Assembly (NCBI GenBank): GCA_947501685.1
Contig: CANMWQ010000003.1
Span: 62,001-126,000 of the forward strand
Length of the DNA stretch: 64,000 nt
From: an uncultured Litoreibacter sp.
Lineage (GTDB): Bacteria; Pseudomonadota; Alphaproteobacteria; Rhodobacterales; Rhodobacteraceae
Direction of reading: 5' to 3'
Positions 21,423 to 41,359 of this stretch are shown here, one piece after another (the stretch's first letter is position 1; each line of letters opens with the position of its first letter). The notes under the pieces were generated by a model. It saw nothing but the letters and a program-made list of their open reading frames with translations. It was not told the DNA's origin and ran no database searches. Made by a program: the position numbers and the translations under genes.

Positions 21423-22225
21423 GACGGCGCACCTTTCGCCAGAAACGCATCGACCTTGCCTCCTGACATGGCCGCCTGCAACCCGGTGAAATCGCCGCCC
21501 AAGACGTCCTGCGCTGTCTCGATCATCGCCCTATGCGTCACCCGCGCCAGAGCCGAGCCCAGCGATATTCGCGCCACCCCGGCGGCGGCAAATTCCGCGT
21601 AACTGTGCTTGGTGATCGGCCCCGCCGCCAGCACGTTCACGGGCTTGCTGGTCGCCGCCACGATCCGTTTCAACGCAATCAAGTCGGGCGGCAGCGGCAC
21701 GTAAATCCCATCCGCCCCCGCCGCGTCAAAGGCCTGCACGCGCCGGATCGCCTCCTCCATGTCATAGCCGCCGGTCATCACCCCGTCCGCCCGCGCCACG
21801 AAGAAGAAATCACCGCTCAGGCTGCGCGCCGCCGCACTCGCTGCCCGCACGCGCTCCACGGCCAGATCAAAGTCATAGACTCGCTCCGACGCGCCAATCG
21901 TGTCCTCGATGCAAATCCCTGCCAGACCAATTTCGCCCGACAGGCGCACCGTCTCTGCGCAGGTCTCGGGGTCGGGGCCAAACCCGTCCTCAAAGTCCCC
22001 CGAGACCGGCACATCCACCGCCGTCATCAGGTCTTGCGCATGGGCCAAATGATCGTCGCGTGACACATGGCCCCCATCCGGCAGCCCGCGCGTAAACGCA
22101 TAGGCCGCCGAGGAGGTCGCAATCGCCTTGGCCCCCAATCCCGCCAGCACGCGGGCCGAGCCCATGTCCCAGGCATTGGCCAAAACAAAGGGCTGACCGG
22201 GCTTGTGAAGGTCCCTGAAACTCAT
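21419..22225 (-). CDS. Isocitrate lyase/PEP mutase superfamily enzyme
   Basis: Protein of 268 aa with the PEP mutase/isocitrate lyase barrel, acting on C-C or P-C bonds of carboxylates. Motifs include FVLANAWDMGSARVLAGLGAKAIATSS-like opening, PVSGDFEDGFG, AGICIEDTIG and ADGIYVPLPPDL. The usual lyase active-site KKCGH is absent, so it belongs to the broad 2-methylisocitrate lyase-like/oxaloacetate decarboxylase group. Start at ATG 22225 overlaps the aminotransferase stop by 4 bp, and its stop overlaps the TPM gene by 4 bp. Three genes are therefore translationally coupled. Confidence 0.8.
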   Translation of the reverse strand: MSFRDLHKPGQPFVLANAWDMGSARVLAGLGAKAIATSSAAYAFTRGLPDGGHVSRDDHLAHAQDLMTAVDVPVSGDFEDGFGPDPETCAETVRLSGEIGLAGICIEDTIGASERVYDFDLAVERVRAASAAARSLSGDFFFVARADGVMTGGYDMEEAIRRVQAFDAAGADGIYVPLPPDLIALKRIVAATSKPVNVLAAGPITKHSYAEFAAAGVARISLGSALARVTHRAMIETAQDVLGGDFTGLQAAMSGGKVDAFLAKGAPS

Positions 22226-23394
22226 GCTGCCAGCTCCTTTGCAAAAGTTAATATCGTGGTCAGCGCCGCCTCGAACGCCGCATCCTCCACGGTCATCGCC
22301 ACCCGAAGATGGCCCGCCGCCGCCGCGCCAAAGCTCTCGCCCGGCATCACCGCGATGCGGTGCGTGTCCAGAAGCCGGTTGGCAAACTCTTCCCCGGACA
22401 GCCCCGTCGCGCGGCAATCGAGCATCAGATACATCGCGCCCCCGGACGGCACCAGCTTAACCACGTTTTGTCCCGCCAAAAGCCCCTGCGCCAGCCTGCG
22501 CCGTCGCTCGAACGGAGCCCCCACACGGCTCTCCAACTCAGGCCCCTCTTTCAGCGCAAAAAGCGCCGCGTCCTGAATATATCCTGGCACGCCATAGGTC
22601 GTATGGGTCGCGAGATTAACCATATGCTCGATCACCTCCGCAGGCCCCGCGACCCAGCCCACGCGGCTGCCGGTCATCGCGTGGCTTTTCGACATGGACC
22701 CCACCACAAGCGTGCGCGCGGCCATCCCCTCCATCGCCCGAGGGCTCAGATGCGCGCCCTCCCAGACCTGCGTGTCATAGACCTCGTCCGAGATGCACCA
22801 CAGATCAAAATCGCAGCACGCCCGCGCGATCCCCTCGACCGTTGGGCGGTCATAGACCACGCCCGTCGGGTTATTCGGCGTGTTTACCAAGATCGACCGC
22901 GCGCCCTCAGCCTGTTCGGCAATATCCGCATAGCTCGGCTGAAACGCCGCCTCAGGCCGGGTCATCACCACGCGCGGCACCGCGCTCGCACCCCGGATCG
23001 TGCCGGGGTAGGTGGCGTAATAGGGGTCACAATAGAGCGCCACGTCGCCCGCGTCACACAGCGCCATATGCGCCGCAAACAGCCCCGCCTGACCGCCCGG
23101 CGTGATCACGATACTGTCCCGGGTGGTCGCCACGCCCGTCCGCTGCGTTAACCTTAATGCCACCGCATCGCGCAACGCCGCGACACCCGGCACGCTGGCA
23201 TATCCGGTATGGCCCGACATGGCCGCCGCGTTCATCGCGGCCAGAATGGTAGGGTCGGTGCGGATGTCATGCTCCCCGATGGTCAGCTCCGTCACGGGCT
23301 CGCCCGCGTTAACCATAGCGCGCGCCCGATAAAACACGTCCCACCCGTCCGAGCCGCCCCCGTTCAGCCCCTCAATCCTGTTCGATACCTGCAT
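22222..23394 (-). CDS. PLP-dependent class I/II aminotransferase
   Basis: Aspartate-aminotransferase fold enzyme of 390 aa. Landmarks are GYASVPGVAALRDAVA, ILVNTPNNPTGVVYD, the ISDEVYDTQVW segment, and the PLP-binding lysine in GSMSKSHAMTGSRVGWVAG. Start chosen at ATG 23394 (MQVSNRIEGL); the in-frame extension to 23445 has no family match. First gene of a coupled three-gene operon with the PEP-mutase-like and TPM proteins. Divergent from the cysS leader. Substrate not predictable. Confidence 0.85.
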   Translation of the reverse strand: MQVSNRIEGLNGGGSDGWDVFYRARAMVNAGEPVTELTIGEHDIRTDPTILAAMNAAAMSGHTGYASVPGVAALRDAVALRLTQRTGVATTRDSIVITPGGQAGLFAAHMALCDAGDVALYCDPYYATYPGTIRGASAVPRVVMTRPEAAFQPSYADIAEQAEGARSILVNTPNNPTGVVYDRPTVEGIARACCDFDLWCISDEVYDTQVWEGAHLSPRAMEGMAARTLVVGSMSKSHAMTGSRVGWVAGPAEVIEHMVNLATHTTYGVPGYIQDAALFALKEGPELESRVGAPFERRRRLAQGLLAGQNVVKLVPSGGAMYLMLDCRATGLSGEEFANRLLDTHRIAVMPGESFGAAAAGHLRVAMTVEDAAFEAALTTILTFAKELAA

Positions 23395-23495
23395 GACGCA
23401 CTCCGTCTTTTGCCGGATGGAGCCAGCCCGCGCCCGCGAAGTCAAACCGCAATTGGTGATTGTTTCAATCAGCCCGCCGGGCTACAAGATACCCC

Positions 23496-23540
23496 ATGAC
23501 CAAGACCTGCATCATCATTTGCTGCTGCATTACCATCTGA
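23496..23540 (+). CDS. Cys/Ile-rich leader peptide upstream of cysS
   Basis: A 14-codon ORF, MTKTCIIICCCITI, ending in TGA 83 bp before the cysS start. It holds four TGC cysteine codons (three consecutive) and five isoleucine codons. Downstream lie cysS, which loads tRNA-Cys, and citramalate synthase, an isoleucine-pathway enzyme. The composition is what a ribosome-stalling attenuation leader for these two amino acids would look like. The ribosome site is weak. A small hairpin (CTGAG-ACAT-CTCAG, 23537-23550) overlaps the stop codon. Expression is inferred, not shown. Confidence 0.55.
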   Translation: MTKTCIIICCCITI

Positions 23541-23549
23541 GACATCTCA

Positions 23550-23597
23550 GGCGGGTCTTAACCATTTTCATCACATGTTGAGTTTGCTAAGCCCGCC
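23550..23597 (+). promoter_or_regulatory. Long inverted repeat after the leader peptide
   Basis: GGCGGG-t-CTTA (23550-23560) pairs with TAAG-CCCGCC (23588-23597): ten pairs with one bulged T and a 27-nt loop. An earlier AGCCCGCC (23471-23478) could compete for the same GGCGGG. No U-tract follows, so control may be Rho-dependent or translational rather than by an intrinsic terminator. Confidence 0.45.
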
Positions 23598-23622
23598 GCA
23601 CCCCCTGCGCGCGTGAGGCCCC

Positions 23623-25098
23623 ATGACCATCCAGCTCTACAACACTGCGACCCGCTCGAAACAGGAGCTCACCCCCATCGAGCCCGGCTGCGTCAGCATG
23701 TATGTCTGTGGGCCCACCGTCTATGATCGCGCCCATCTGGGCAATGCCCGCGCGGTGGTTGTCTTCGATATGCTCTACCGCCTGTTGCGCCATGAATATG
23801 GTTCGGATGCAGTGACTTACGTGCGGAACTTCACAGATGTGGATGACAAGATCAACGCCCGTGCCGCAGAGACGGGCCGCGATATTTCCGACATCACCGC
23901 CGAGACGACGCAGTGGTTTCTTGACGATATGGCCGCCATCGGCGCGCTCGAGCCAAACGAGATGCCACGTGCCACCGCTTACGTGCCGCATATGGTTAAG
24001 ATGATCGAAGGTCTGATCGAAAAGGGCCATGCTTACGCTGCAGAGGGCCACGTCCTCTTTAAGGTTCGCTCCTATGATGATTACGGAAAATTAAGCGGTC
24101 GCAGCGTCGATGATATGCTCGCCGGTGCCCGCGTCGAGGTGGCCCCCTACAAAGAAGACCCGATGGATTTCGTCCTCTGGAAACCCTCCTCAGATGACAT
24201 CCCCGGCTGGGACAGTCCCTGGGGCCGAGGCCGCCCCGGCTGGCACATCGAATGCTCCGCCATGGCCTATGAGCTGCTCGGAGACCGCTTCGACATCCAC
24301 GGCGGCGGCAACGACCTGACCTTCCCCCACCACGAAAACGAAATCGCGCAGTCAAAATGCGCAGGCCACGGTTTCGCAAACATCTGGATGCATAACGAGA
24401 TGCTACAGGTCGAAGGCAAGAAAATGTCTAAAAGCCTCGGCAATTTCTTTACTGTCAGGCAAGTTCTCGACGGAACCGCTCCACTCCTGCAGAGAAAGAT
24501 GTCGGGCAATGCGGTCAGGATTTCATTTTTATTGTCTCATTACCGGCAGGTAATGGACTTCGGAGTTGAGCGACGTCATGAGGCTGAAGCTATTATATCG
24601 AGTTTTGCAAAAGCGCTTGGTCGCGCCGGAGAGGAGATAAGAAATAGCCTCGTCGCTTCCGAAGAATTAGTTGACCAGCAAGTCGTCGAATTCTTGGCTG
24701 ACGACCTAGACGTACCGAAGGCGATCAAGCATTTACAGACGACTGTTAAGTCCCTGCCGACAGAATTGGATCTCCGAGTTTCAGAAATAGAGCGGTTGTA
24801 CTCAACGTTGACATTGCTTCTTGGCGTCGATTTGAAGGAAAGCCCCATCGCAATCGACAGTGCTCGAAATACCGACGAATTACGAGGTGTAATCTTCAGA
24901 GCAATTGGACAAGTTGATGTAATTGCGACGATTGCGCAACGGATAGACCAAGCACGAGCTTCCAAGAATTTCAACTTGGCGGATCGGCTGAAAGCAGAAC
25001 TTCAAGAGGCGGGAATTGAAGTGCGTGTAACTCCAGAAGGAACAAAAACTGTCCGTACAGAGAACTTCGACCCGAGCAAACTGGAGGACTTCAAATGA
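23623..25098 (+). CDS. cysS: Cysteinyl-tRNA synthetase, with a compositionally distinct C-terminal half
   Basis: Class I synthetase of 491 aa attaching cysteine to tRNA-Cys. The HIGH-type motif is HLGN (38-41) in [14 protein letters not shown]. Zinc-ligand segments are [18 protein letters not shown] and [20 protein letters not shown] is at 267-271. The C-terminal helical domain is complete, and the frame is open throughout. Hand-counted GC of 24481-25080 is 288/600 (48%), against 65% and 72% in two sampled 60-bp lines of the first half (23641, 24181). Recombination with a foreign copy is therefore likely. It starts after a Cys/Ile leader and ends on an ATGA overlap with a tiny ORF. Confidence 0.95.
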
Positions 25099-25256
25099 TC
25101 CCCTCCACCCGTCATCCCCGCGAAAGCGGGGACCTCGCTGTTCAGCGCGCTAACCGTTACCAAACCCCTACCAAAACCACCCCCAAAGTTTTGTCCCATT
25201 TTGGGGAAACGCCCAAAATGTTTTGTCCCAAAATGTCCCAAAAGGCCGCGTTATGA
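25095..25256 (+). CDS. Candidate 53-codon ORF coupled to cysS and cimA
   Basis: Its ATG overlaps the cysS stop (ATGA), and its own TGA overlaps the cimA start (ATGA). The frame is open across the whole 154-bp spacer. The predicted 53-aa peptide is basic (starts [13 protein letters not shown], ends MSQKAAL) and crosses a REP-like palindrome and the cimA hairpin region. Coding is uncertain. It may be only a translated spacer that keeps ribosomes moving from cysS to cimA, or a chance opening. Confidence 0.25.
25111..25136 (+). repeat. REP-like palindrome (GTCATCCCCGCGAAAGCGGGG)
   Basis: Stem CCCCGC (25116-25121), GAAA loop, GCGGGG (25126-25131), preceded by GTCAT and followed by ACCTC. This is the widely dispersed proteobacterial GTCATCCCCGCG..GCGGGGA-type palindrome. 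It lies just beyond the low-GC end of cysS. Confidence 0.65.
25172..25243 (+). promoter_or_regulatory. Alternative-hairpin region before citramalate synthase
   Basis: CATTTTGGG (25197-25205) can pair perfectly with CCCAAAATG at 25212-25220 or with a second copy at 25227-25235; a third partial copy, CCCAAAA, starts at 25237. CAAAAC (25172-25177) can also pair with GTTTTG (25188-25193). The first hairpin is followed directly by TTTTG. Mutually exclusive stems right before cimA suggest attenuation or control of cimA translation. Confidence 0.45.
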
Positions 25257-26869
25257 CCAAAGAGCGCCTCTCCCTCTTCGACACCACGCTGCGTGACGGG
25301 AACCAGACCCAGGGCGTGCAATTCTCCGCCTCTGAAAAGGTACAGATCGCCCAGATTTTGGACCAGATTGGCCTTGATTATATCGAAGCAGGCTGGCCCG
25401 GCGCGAACCCGACCGACACGGAGTTCTTCGCGCAACCCCCTGTTACAAAAGCAAAAATGACGGCCTTTGGGATGACCAAACGGGCAGGGCGCTCCGCTGA
25501 AAACGATGACGTGCTCGCCGTCGTTATGAACGCCAACACGGCTGCGGTTTGCCTTGTCGGCAAGACACATGATTTCCACGTCAAGACCGCTCTGGGCATC
25601 TCGCTGGAAGAGAATATTGAAAATATTTCTCAATCTTTCAAACACATAGCCGCTAATAATCGCGAAGCCATCTTCGACGCCGAGCATTTTTTCGACGGCT
25701 ACAAGGCCAATCCCGACTACGCCTTGCAAGCCATCCACGCCGCCTTCGACGCCGGCACCCGCTGGATTGCCCTGTGCGACACCAATGGTGGCACCTTGCC
25801 GTCCGAAATTAGTGATATAGTACAACAGGTTATCGCCTCTGGCATACCCGGAAGCCATGTCGCGATCCACACGCATAATGACACCGAAAATGCCGTCGCG
25901 GGCAGCCTTGCGGCCATTGATGCCGGGGCGCGGCAAGTGCAAGGCACGCTCAACGGTCTGGGCGAGCGCTGCGGCAATGCCAACCTGACCTCAATTATCC
26001 CAACTTTACTGTTAAAACAACGCTATAGGGAGCGTTTCGAATGTGGAGTTTCGGAAGAAAACCTGCATCTTCTGACCCTCGCTAGCCGCAAATTGGACGA
26101 CATTCTGAACCGCGTCCCCAACAAACACGCAGCCTATGTCGGTGCTTCGGCCTTCGCGCATAAATCCGGGCTGCATGCCTCGGCCATTTTGAAGGACCCA
26201 AGCACCTATGAACATGTCGATCCGGCATTGGTCGGCAACACCCGGATCGTGCCGATGTCCAATCAGGCGGGGCAGTCTAACCTACGGAAAAGGTTGACGG
26301 AAATGGGGGTTGAGGTCTCTGACAAAACAGCTCTGCCGCGCATTTTGGAGCGCATCAAACAGGCCGAAGAGCAGGGCTATAGCTACGACACGGCGCAGGC
26401 CTCTTTCGAGCTTTTGGCGCGGGACGAGCTGGGCTTGATCCCCAATTTCTTCGAGGTGAAGCGCTACAAGGTCACCGTGGAGCGCCGGAAAAACAAGTAT
26501 AACCAGATGGTTAGCCTGTCCGAGGCAATGGTCGTCGTGAAAGTCGGCGGCAAAAAGATGCTCTCTGTCAGTGAAAGCATGGACGCTGACGGTTCTGACC
26601 GCGGCCCGGTGAATGCGCTGTCCAAGGCGCTCGCCAAGGATTTGGGGCCGTATTCGGCGATCCTTGAGGACATGCATCTTGTTGATTTCAAAGTCAGAAT
26701 TACCCAAGGCGGGACGGAGGCCGTCACCCGTGTGATCATCGACAGCGCTGACGGCGCGGGCCGTCTCTGGTCGACCGTGGGCGTGTCGCCCAACATTGTT
26801 GACGCCAGTTTCGAGGCGCTTTTGGACGCGATCAACTGGAAACTCATTCAGGAGGGCGCCAAGGCATGA
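25253..26869 (+). CDS. cimA: (R)-citramalate synthase
   Basis: Acyltransferase of 538 aa of the isopropylmalate/citramalate synthase family. It condenses pyruvate and acetyl-CoA to citramalate, the first step of the threonine-independent isoleucine route. The barrel opens LFDTTLRDGNQTQGVQFS with metal-binding aspartate, then YIEAGWPGANPTD, and HTHNDTENAVAGS. The C-terminal LeuA-type regulatory domain ends near FEALLDAINWKL. The overall form is the TIGR00977 citramalate synthase class rather than LeuA. Start at ATG 25253 overlaps a small upstream ORF. It follows cysS and overlaps the next gene by 4 bp. Confidence 0.9.
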   Translation: MTKERLSLFDTTLRDGNQTQGVQFSASEKVQIAQILDQIGLDYIEAGWPGANPTDTEFFAQPPVTKAKMTAFGMTKRAGRSAENDDVLAVVMNANTAAVCLVGKTHDFHVKTALGISLEENIENISQSFKHIAANNREAIFDAEHFFDGYKANPDYALQAIHAAFDAGTRWIALCDTNGGTLPSEISDIVQQVIASGIPGSHVAIHTHNDTENAVAGSLAAIDAGARQVQGTLNGLGERCGNANLTSIIPTLLLKQRYRERFECGVSEENLHLLTLASRKLDDILNRVPNKHAAYVGASAFAHKSGLHASAILKDPSTYEHVDPALVGNTRIVPMSNQAGQSNLRKRLTEMGVEVSDKTALPRILERIKQAEEQGYSYDTAQASFELLARDELGLIPNFFEVKRYKVTVERRKNKYNQMVSLSEAMVVVKVGGKKMLSVSESMDADGSDRGPVNALSKALAKDLGPYSAILEDMHLVDFKVRITQGGTEAVTRVIIDSADGAGRLWSTVGVSPNIVDASFEALLDAINWKLIQEGAKA

Positions 26870-27636
26870 GCCTTGAGGCCTGCAAGGAACTGGTGCGTGC
26901 GGGTGATCCAGATCGCTATGAGGTCACCGTCTTAGCCCCTGAAAACGTTCAGAAAGTCCTCTGGCCGCTTTACGCGTTCAATGTCGAGGTGACCCGCGCG
27001 CCTTGGGTCACGCAAGAGCCAATGATCGCCGAGATCCGCCTGCAATGGTGGCGCGACGCTTTGTCCGAGATCCGCGAAGGCAAACAGGTCCGCTCCCATG
27101 CGGTCACGGTGCCTCTGGCCGAGATACTGGACCCCGAAGGGGCCATGGTGCTCGACAAACTCGTCGAAGCCCGCGCATGGGATATATACGCCGATGCGTT
27201 TCCCAATCGCGAGAGCTTTGATGCCTATATCGACGCGACCTATGGCAACCTGATCTGGACCGCTGCACGGCTTATTGCACCTGAGGCGGAAGAAAAAATC
27301 ATCCGCAAATTCGCCTATGGCTGCGGGATCGCGGCGATGCTGCGGGCCACGGCGCGGCTCAAATCCATGGGGCGCAGTCCACTGTTTGATGACAATGTCA
27401 CTGCGTTTCACAAATTGGCCAGGCACGGGTTTTTCAACATGAATTACGCCATCAGGGCGCGCAAGAGCCTGCCTAAATCGCTTGAGCCTTTGCTGATGTC
27501 AGGTTGGAACGCGTTCCCGACTTTCATTTCCGTGCGTCACAACGCGCAAAGAATTTACGAGCACGGTTTCACGCAAAGCGAGTTTTCGCGGCGCTACCGG
27601 ATCTTGAAGCTCAGCCTCTTTGGGTGGTGGCGCTAG
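26866..27636 (+). CDS. Squalene/phytoene-synthase-fold protein lacking Asp-rich motifs
   Basis: Protein of 256 aa with the all-helical squalene/phytoene synthase fold (VLWPLYAFNVEVTRAPW, IAEIRLQWWRDALSEI, YGNLIWTAARLI). The catalytic DxxxD motifs are missing: the first reads NVEVTR where DDxxD is expected, and the later position reads MLRATARLKSMG instead of NILRDxxED. It therefore resembles NDUFAF6-like non-catalytic members, one of which is a mitochondrial complex I assembly factor. ATGA overlap with cimA; its stop codon shares CTAG with the convergent MFS gene. Confidence 0.75.
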   Translation: MSLEACKELVRAGDPDRYEVTVLAPENVQKVLWPLYAFNVEVTRAPWVTQEPMIAEIRLQWWRDALSEIREGKQVRSHAVTVPLAEILDPEGAMVLDKLVEARAWDIYADAFPNRESFDAYIDATYGNLIWTAARLIAPEAEEKIIRKFAYGCGIAAMLRATARLKSMGRSPLFDDNVTAFHKLARHGFFNMNYAIRARKSLPKSLEPLLMSGWNAFPTFISVRHNAQRIYEHGFTQSEFSRRYRILKLSLFGWWR

Positions 27637-41285: not shown

Positions 41286-41359
41286 TGGAGCGGGTAACGG
41301 GAATTGAACCCGTAACTTAAGCTTGGGAAGCTCGCGTGATACCTTTTCACCATACCCGC
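41286..41359 (-). tRNA. tRNA-Gly (anticodon CCC)
   Basis: Full cloverleaf on the minus strand: acceptor GCGGGTA/TACCCGC, D stem GTGA/TCAC, anticodon loop TTCCCAA with CCC at 41325-41327, T stem ACGGG/CCCGT with loop TTCAATT, discriminator T, and encoded CCA at 41286-41288. The outermost anticodon-stem pair (27-43) is C-A, not paired. Total 74 nt with CCA. It reads GGG codons. Confidence 0.93.

Follow-up and report, generated by a model that had tools for sequence, protein, structure and literature searches.

In the window, i.e. the whole stretch of 64,000 nucleotides of DNA analysed here, the genes for cysteinyl-tRNA synthetase (cysS) and citramalate synthase (cimA) follow each other on the forward strand, and cysS is preceded by a short ORF rich in Cys and Ile codons, by predicted promoter elements and by inverted repeats. 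The features referred to below are the following.

23460..23484 (+): P1, predicted leader promoter with -35 TTGTTT (23460-23465) and -10 region GCTA (23481-23484)
23496..23540 (+): leader ORF MTKTCIIICCCITI, stop TGA, conserved in relatives
23532..23541 (+): segment A, the leader's last codons and stop, 5' arm of the stop hairpin, used in the A:B pairing tests
23546..23560 (+): segment B, able to pair with A through CTCAG or with C through GGCGGG-t-CTTA, used in the pairing and covariation tests
23557..23569 (+): T-rich stretch behind B, possible terminator U-tract, compared by T fraction in leader loci
23564..23591 (+): predicted promoter P2 for cysS, -35 ATTTTC (23564-23569), -10 region TTGCTAAG, predicted +1 near 23600
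23588..23597 (+): segment C, TAAGCCCGCC, complementary to B and used for covariation with B
23623..25098 (+): cysS, cysteinyl-tRNA synthetase (TIGR00435, 443.8 bits, cut-off 340, NCBIfam equivalog)
25095..25256 (+): 53-codon ORF between cysS and cimA, contains a dispersed repeat
25253..26869 (+): cimA, citramalate synthase of the isoleucine route (TIGR00977, 576.5 bits, cut-off 450, NCBIfam equivalog)
26866..27636 (+): squalene/phytoene-synthase-like gene 3' of cimA (weak TIGR03465 match, below cut-off)

An initial annotation of this DNA had named the two genes and had pointed to a 14-codon ORF with four Cys and five Ile codons in front of cysS. Both gene identities are confirmed by scores above the equivalog cut-offs, and the ORF is indeed present: it begins with ATG, ends 82 nt before cysS, and has Cys at codons 5 and 9-11, including a run of three, and Ile at codons 6-8, 12 and 14, all Cys codons being TGC. 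The ORF between cysS and cimA, which had been counted as a further member of the operon, had to be abandoned. It has ATGA overlaps at both ends, but part of it is a GTCATCCCCGCGAAAGCGGGGACC-type dispersed intergenic repeat with five further partial matches elsewhere in the genome, there is no conserved counterpart in the cysS-cimA gap of relatives, where a single partial match (L003) was found, and it is probably not a gene. A direct overlap of the two genes is frequent in relatives, the gap being -4 to -1 nt at the 10th to 25th percentile, with a median of 78 nt (94 loci). A divergent gene for a PLP-dependent aminotransferase (22222-23379, minus strand) has its start region just 5' of the predicted leader promoter. 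The Rfam scan of the window gave a tRNA (41289-41359, minus strand) as the single match at gathering score, and the leader, where two sub-threshold matches occurred, is covered by no family.

Upstream regions of cysS were collected from the genomes of 148 relatives (142 with a cysS match), from 80 named contigs and from further stretches; three of the genomes (G005, G076, G100) each have a second, more distant cysS-like match. A leader was scored when an ATG ORF of 9-20 codons with at least four Cys plus Ile codons had its stop 40-200 nt before cysS. This finder was positive at 122 of the 142 Rhodobacteraceae loci in which cimA adjoins cysS, a set that includes a few species present in both collections (e.g. 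L004/L031). A chance ORF can be rejected, as 122 of 140 upstream regions from linked loci with 200 nt or more were positive, compared to 44 of 2800 dinucleotide (Markov) model sequences of the same regions and one of 140 antisense controls, and the window's level of at least nine Cys plus Ile codons is reached in 15 of the 140 real regions and in none of the 2800 model sequences. Twenty of the 142 loci lie below the threshold, including two with truncated upstream sequence (L093, L162), and the leader is therefore dispensable. The best match among the named contigs, L031 from Litoreibacter, has the leader MTKTCIIMCCCITI with the same spacing as in the window. In other alphaproteobacterial families, three of 24 cysS regions were positive (L175, L176, L181). 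While L175 has a single Ile, L176 (genome G141) and L181 (genome G146) have MLGSTFCIIDWIICDR and MSNAHTIFICPIICR, respectively, before a cysS that is linked to cimA, and the device may thus be older than the Rhodobacterales.

For the analysis of composition, 136 leaders were assembled from the 122 linked loci, nine contig-end or ambiguous loci, four split-contig loci and L181, with L211 and L213 removed by hand; they correspond to 129 distinct leader DNAs. In these, 31% of the residues are Ile and 23% Cys, with 2% Leu and 1% Val, a composition that partly reflects selection, as the leaders were picked by their Cys plus Ile content. At least two Ile occur in 128 and at least two Cys in 118 of the 129, which for Cys contrasts with 1.3% in CysS itself, albeit under the same selection. 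Counted from the stop, position -3 is Ile in 94%, -4 is Cys in 73%, -5 is Cys in 69% and -7 is Ile in 71%. The less-used Ile codon ATT is enriched, with 270 ATT to 216 ATC in leaders versus 250 to 1129 in cysS of the same loci, and 114 of the 270 ATT stand at -3; Cys is encoded by 328 TGC and 35 TGT. In close leader pairs (at most six bases apart; 54 pairs, which are non-independent), Ile codons show 41 synonymous and 26 non-synonymous differences, Cys codons eight and nine. Order of Cys and Ile and length differ among leaders, and the divergent leaders L153, L161 and L164 combine a single Cys with at least four Ile. The check which the initial annotation had proposed, a comparison of cysS upstream regions in Rhodobacteraceae for conserved Cys/Ile ORFs with synonymous drift, thus turned out in its favour.

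Predicted promoters and competing RNA pairings

The predicted +1 of promoter P1 is the A of the leader ATG or adjacent to it. Two motifs are conserved 5' of this ATG, namely CTTGnC, which matches the place of the -35 element, and TGCTA, and 114 of the 136 loci could be anchored. Among 132 distinct sequences, TA occupies positions -12/-11 in 66 cases and -13/-12 in 35, together in 101, and each other position 5' of the leader in 0-6%. SD-like 4-mers precede the leader in only 11 of the 132, versus 126 of 136 for cysS. Given the conserved distance between -10 region and ATG and the usual spacing between -10 region and +1, the leader RNA would start at the AUG, and according to this predicted start the leader mRNA is probably leaderless. 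The initial annotation had suggested that an upstream AGCCCGCC can compete for GGCGGG. This sequence (23471-23478) is situated between the predicted -35 and -10 elements of P1 and should therefore be absent from the RNA, so that this competitor is dropped.

A second promoter-like element between leader and cysS consists of [AG]TTTCC, a spacer and TTGCTAAG, with exact spacing. TT is found exactly 21/20 nt before the TTGCTA-like box in 89 of 90 leader loci and in 18 of 21 leader-less loci that have the box, and with a slightly different pattern the box is detected in 89 of 135 leader loci and 22 of 41 loci without leader. We read this element as a putative promoter P2 that would be independent of the leader. 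Being downstream of it, P2 would bypass an attenuator, which counts against the model described below. A scan for E. coli-type sigma-70 promoters (23300-23700) found neither P1 nor P2. The P2 element is often retained where the leader has been lost, and the GC-rich CCCGCC after the box resembles a stringent-type discriminator.

The two inverted repeats are as the initial annotation had described them: CTGAG/CTCAG spans the leader stop (23537-23541/23546-23550), and GGCGGG-t-CTTA/TAAGCCCGCC connects 23550-23560 with 23588-23597. In tests on 129 loci, own partners beat swapped partners for A:B (z -11.9, 0/2000 permutations) and for B:C (z -9.9, 0/2000). The pairing of A with C is weak (z -2.4, 22/2000), the pairing of C with the RBS region (C:D) reaches z -4.7 with the own partner favoured in just 58% of the loci, and a pairing of B with the RBS region was rejected (z -0.6).

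One position of B covaries with one of C. At the 114 loci that contain both xGCGGG and CCCGCy, the variable positions are G/C in 54, C/G in 37 and other in 23, and in independent pairs 7.1 of 8 change together when both sites are required to be G or C. In an alignment of 70 of the 136 leader loci, the covariation scores exceed those of shuffled alignments for A:B (0.124 versus 0.097, reached in 0/500 shuffles) and for B:C (0.110 versus 0.088, reached in 7/500), but two-sided changes are no more frequent than in shuffles (2 versus 2.3 for B:C, 3 versus 2.3 for A:B), and RNAalifold gave no consensus structure for the 70 sequences. In our opinion, the latter is due to a stop hairpin that occurs in two registers; the named A:B and B:C pairs were counted directly in place of the consensus.

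The two pairings are predicted to compete. In partition-function folds (means of 129 loci), A:B has 5.5 pairs and B:C 3.3 without masking; when a ribosome is placed with its A site at one of the codons -5 to -1, these values shift to 0-1.8 for A:B and to 5.1-8.4 for B:C. Placing it on the stop codon abolishes A:B as well, with 2.3 pairs in B:C, and the model therefore needs a quick release. For the window alone, A:B disappears upon stalls at -4 to -1, where B:C has 0.3-0.5 pairs (2.1 at -1). A stall at -5 gives 10.5 pairs in B:C and leaves 4.7 in A:B, and stalls farther upstream likewise increase B:C, with A-B contacts remaining. The stop hairpin, with a mean of -10.7 kcal/mol and 3.7 T in the next 8 nt (the hairpin end being partly chosen for T), is a weak terminator. 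The terminator scan of the window found no canonical terminator, and the fold of the window is unremarkable (z -1.0). At -30..-23 of the P2 box, the T fraction is 0.49 in 89 leader loci versus 0.27 in 18 below-threshold loci (P 2e-5).

We consider it likely that this leader is a dual Cys/Ile ribosome-stalling attenuator, which would sense charged tRNA-Cys and tRNA-Ile and thereby control the cysS-cimA operon; the sensing step is suggested by conservation and by the gene losses described below. P1 would start the RNA at the leader's own AUG, and the leader would be translated without a ribosome-binding site, close behind the RNA polymerase. When Cys-tRNA and Ile-tRNA are plentiful, the ribosome would finish and depart, A would fold onto B, and this hairpin together with the T-rich stretch would diminish transcription into cysS and cimA, which would be co-transcribed. 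When either charged tRNA is short, the ribosome would stall on the conserved last codons (I-C-C-I-x) and cover A, so that the A:B hairpin would not form, transcription would continue, and B would pair with C. P2, 3' of the leader, would if active supply a basal cysS-cimA transcript. The role of B:C is the weakest part of the model. As the polymerase reaches C only beyond the T-rich stretch, B:C would form too late to counteract termination there by itself. It perhaps hinders the pairing of A with B in the completed transcript, or has an influence on stability or Rho.

The same dual sensor could in principle have another output than intrinsic termination, either a translational one, in which B:C frees the cysS RBS, or a Rho-dependent one, and among the alternatives this one, albeit unlikely, has to be taken most seriously. 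It would agree with the result of the terminator scan and with the C:D signal, a stall at -5 leaves the RBS more open in 46% and less open in 16% of the 129 loci, and Rho has been proposed for actinobacterial Cys leaders (PMC1262725, excerpt). However, mean RBS access rises on masking only from 0.375 to at most 0.42 (129 loci), which makes RBS sequestration weak as the main output, the own C:D partner is favoured in little more than half of the loci, and a control at the cysS RBS would reach cimA only through coupling. The extra T-tract in leader loci argues against translational and Rho-dependent outputs alike.

Leader and cimA across the Rhodobacteraceae

cimA is present in 378 of 395 Rhodobacteraceae genomes of at least 95% completeness; two of the 17 cimA-less genomes (G248, G440) gave no cysS match. 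In 34 loci, no linked cimA was found in the fetched stretch. Four of these are distant (L106, L108, L109, L110), in eight the contig stops inside cysS or shortly behind it (L032, L053, L066, L079, L086, L210, L214, L224; all with leader), L215 is ambiguous (with leader), and two are duplicates (L212 = L123, L218 = L142); with these excluded, 19 loci were kept. L121, L129, L131 and L134, which are on split contigs or miss cimA at a contig end and are all finder-positive, belong to neither set.

None of the 19 loci with cimA absent or elsewhere retains a Cys+Ile leader. L211 and L213, which belong to one genus, keep a Cys-only form, MDWICCLCRA; its three Cys and single Ile, a sum of 4, still satisfy the finder. 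In the other 17, no Cys leader is found although cysS stays. The genomes of this set that carry a genus code represent nine such codes, and at one locus (L221) a possible leader remnant, MTKQPASAQSFCSRR, can be seen. In a CysS tree (FastTree; 123 rows, 111 scored for both traits, L132 left out due to its short stretch), the Cys+Ile leader is present in 82 of 93 linked and in 0 of 18 unlinked rows when L211 and L213 are coded as lacking it. Linkage changes 11 times on this tree. Of nine independent pairs, a mean of 7.5 show the leader changing in the same sense as linkage, and none show the opposite (median P 0.016). With L211 and L213 coded as present, 7.3 pairs are for and 0.1 against, and with L215 additionally coded as unlinked, 7.1 and 0.1, at the same median P in both cases. 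The latter locus (genome G188) is a counter-example, as cimA is missing from the assembly and a leader, MGTAIRICGICITV, is present; on its contig, the sequence 3' of cysS consists of tandem copies of a long repeat, which continue until the contig breaks off.

The leader does not accompany a moved cimA: such a relocation was rejected, since at none of the three moved cimA loci a Cys/Ile leader is found in front of the gene. The gene that is normally located 3' of cimA was found in the cysS locus in 9 of 12 cimA-less loci searched. The C-terminal domain of threonine deaminase occurs in 28 of 30 genomes tested, cimA-bearing and cimA-less ones, and a loss of cimA therefore need not mean a loss of isoleucine synthesis.

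Two genera are informative with respect to the individual codons. In the three genomes of genus g156, cimA is never beside cysS, and two of them (G191, G477) have no close cimA match at all. The ORFs at the place of the leader are MDWICCLCRA, MDWICCLCRA and MEWICCPC, with one Ile and three Cys, and the Cys codons are retained with synonymous changes. In the two genomes of genus g15, cimA is linked and the leaders are Ile-rich, with no Cys in G034 (MNAPNRIIGIIIGG) and one in G496 (MDAPNRLIGIIICG). Comparison of the sequences supports the view that the leader codons match the products of the operon, Cys with cysS and Ile with cimA.

Relation to known leaders and implications

The initial annotation had known of no description of a joint Cys/Ile leader for such an operon. 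A motif termed uORFC-8-2 is reportedly due to Brewer et al. 2021. The leader very probably is this published motif (PMC8632094), as indicated by place, order and codons, and the element as such can therefore not be regarded as undescribed. uORFC-8-2 comprises 145 examples, solely upstream of cysS in Rhodobacterales, each a short AUG ORF with tandem Cys codons and dominant UGC, accompanied by two stems and a U-run at the 3' end (intrinsic terminator), and ribosome-mediated attenuation by Cys was proposed for it (PMC8632094, excerpt). Both uORFC-8-2 and the window's leader lie directly 5' of cysS in Rhodobacterales, and both are AUG ORFs with tandem Cys codons that are mainly UGC/TGC. They differ in that the tandem Cys codons of uORFC-8-2 are usually at positions 14 and 15 (PMC8632094, excerpt) and those of the window at 9-11 of 14 codons, but the published numbering may run from another start codon. 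Moreover, the excerpt describes a 3' U-run, whereas the scan gave no terminator in the window; the family has a T-rich stretch at this place, and of the stems A:B is supported. Part of the published U-run may be the -35 element of P2, a reading that is qualified by the fact that T-richness just 5' of this element is confined to leader loci. In the main text of PMC8632094, 'isoleucine' and 'citramalate' have no occurrence, and its excerpts on the motif make no mention of a leaderless start, a second promoter or a loss together with cimA. The reading as a Cys attenuator is therefore already published. Within the literature searched, the novelty lies in the proposed part of isoleucine, in the predicted leaderless start and in the tie to cimA. 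The matches listed for the open-access papers searched included nothing else on a cysS-cimA leader or a Cys/Ile leader, nor a leader in which two unrelated amino acids are combined for an operon of synthetase and biosynthesis.

Could the leader sense only one of its two amino acids? An attenuator of cysS that responds to Cys alone, with Ile codons that are incidental or serve RNA pairing, corresponds to the published reading of uORFC-8-2 (PMC8632094, excerpt), and the frequent Cys at -5 and -4 as well as the Cys codons of the cimA-less g156 would agree with it. Nevertheless, Ile is the commonest leader residue and almost invariant at -3, the g15 leaders have no or one Cys with cimA in place, and outside g156 the 17 loci mentioned above show no Cys leader in spite of a retained cysS, which makes this explanation improbable. 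An attenuator of cimA that responds to Ile alone, with incidental Cys codons, is still harder to reconcile with the data. It would explain why the leader tracks cimA and why the g15 leaders as well as L153, L161 and L164 have no or one Cys, but not the two or more Cys in most leaders at 1.3% Cys in CysS (selection plays a part in this contrast), nor the Cys codons that g156 kept with synonymous changes after losing cimA. A functional Cys-rich peptide with a metal or redox role could account for the strong residue conservation and would have a precedent in the trans-acting peTrpL of S. meliloti (PMC7298713, excerpt), but is hardly credible in view of the variable Cys/Ile order and length, the loss of the leader with cimA, and the overlap of its stop with the supported A:B pairing.

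The dual Cys/Ile attenuator is thus the reading that we prefer. From the version of the initial annotation, the undescribed status, the additional ORF and the upstream competitor have fallen, and the core is strengthened by the joint loss of Cys+Ile leader and cimA, the Cys-only ORFs of g156 and the Ile-rich leaders of g15.

Classical ribosome-mediated attenuators are known from trp, his, ilv and thr operons. The leader described here shares with them the short, amino-acid-rich ORF, RNA pairings that are predicted to be mutually exclusive, and the biosynthetic operon. Unlike these, it would deal with two amino acids of unrelated pathways, one of the genes encodes a tRNA synthetase, the hairpin overlaps the stop codon, and the terminator is weak. 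In ermC-type translational attenuators, a ribosome stalled on the leader frees B from A for pairing with C. The same exchange is predicted here, but the release of the RBS is weak. In case of mycobacterial ilvB1, the leader contains several amino acids of one family, and the stalled ribosome permits an antiterminator (PMC13236596, excerpt). In the present model, the ribosome itself would occupy the 5' arm of the hairpin. Actinobacterial poly-Cys leaders likewise have Cys runs near the stop and no clear terminator, but they contain Cys alone, precede cys and cbs operons rather than cysS, and belong to another phylum (PMC1262725, excerpt). For the Cys leader of M. smegmatis, translation attenuation is cited (PMC13236596, excerpt). 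The S. meliloti trpL/rnTrpL is also an alphaproteobacterial leader of 14 amino acids, and its RNA starts at the ATG and is leaderless, but it is concerned with Trp and with transcription attenuation of trpE(G), and it has known functions in trans (PMC7298713, excerpt).

Beyond this, we tentatively suggest that the leader may be a modular readout of operon content, i.e. a leaderless two-input sensor that couples Cys-tRNA supply to Ile synthesis. Upon loss of cimA, either the Ile codons would be stripped and the Cys codons kept, as in g156, or the leader would be discarded, while g15, which has cimA, would have kept Ile and dropped nearly all Cys. The short RNA from P1 and its peptide may also act in trans, similar to rnTrpL/peTrpL.

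If the dual reading is correct, a single attenuator would monitor two amino acids from unrelated pathways, and the published cysteine-only reading of uORFC-8-2 would have to be revised. In Roseobacter denitrificans, 80% of the isoleucine flux passes through citramalate, and no cimA is annotated (PMC2749216, excerpt). We infer that the cysS-linked cimA is the natural candidate for this route, for which a regulated gene would thus be indicated. The loss of cimA in several lineages would be a natural experiment in which evolution reveals what leader codons stand for. A tRNA synthetase and a biosynthetic enzyme would then be driven together, throughout an order with common marine and phototrophic members.
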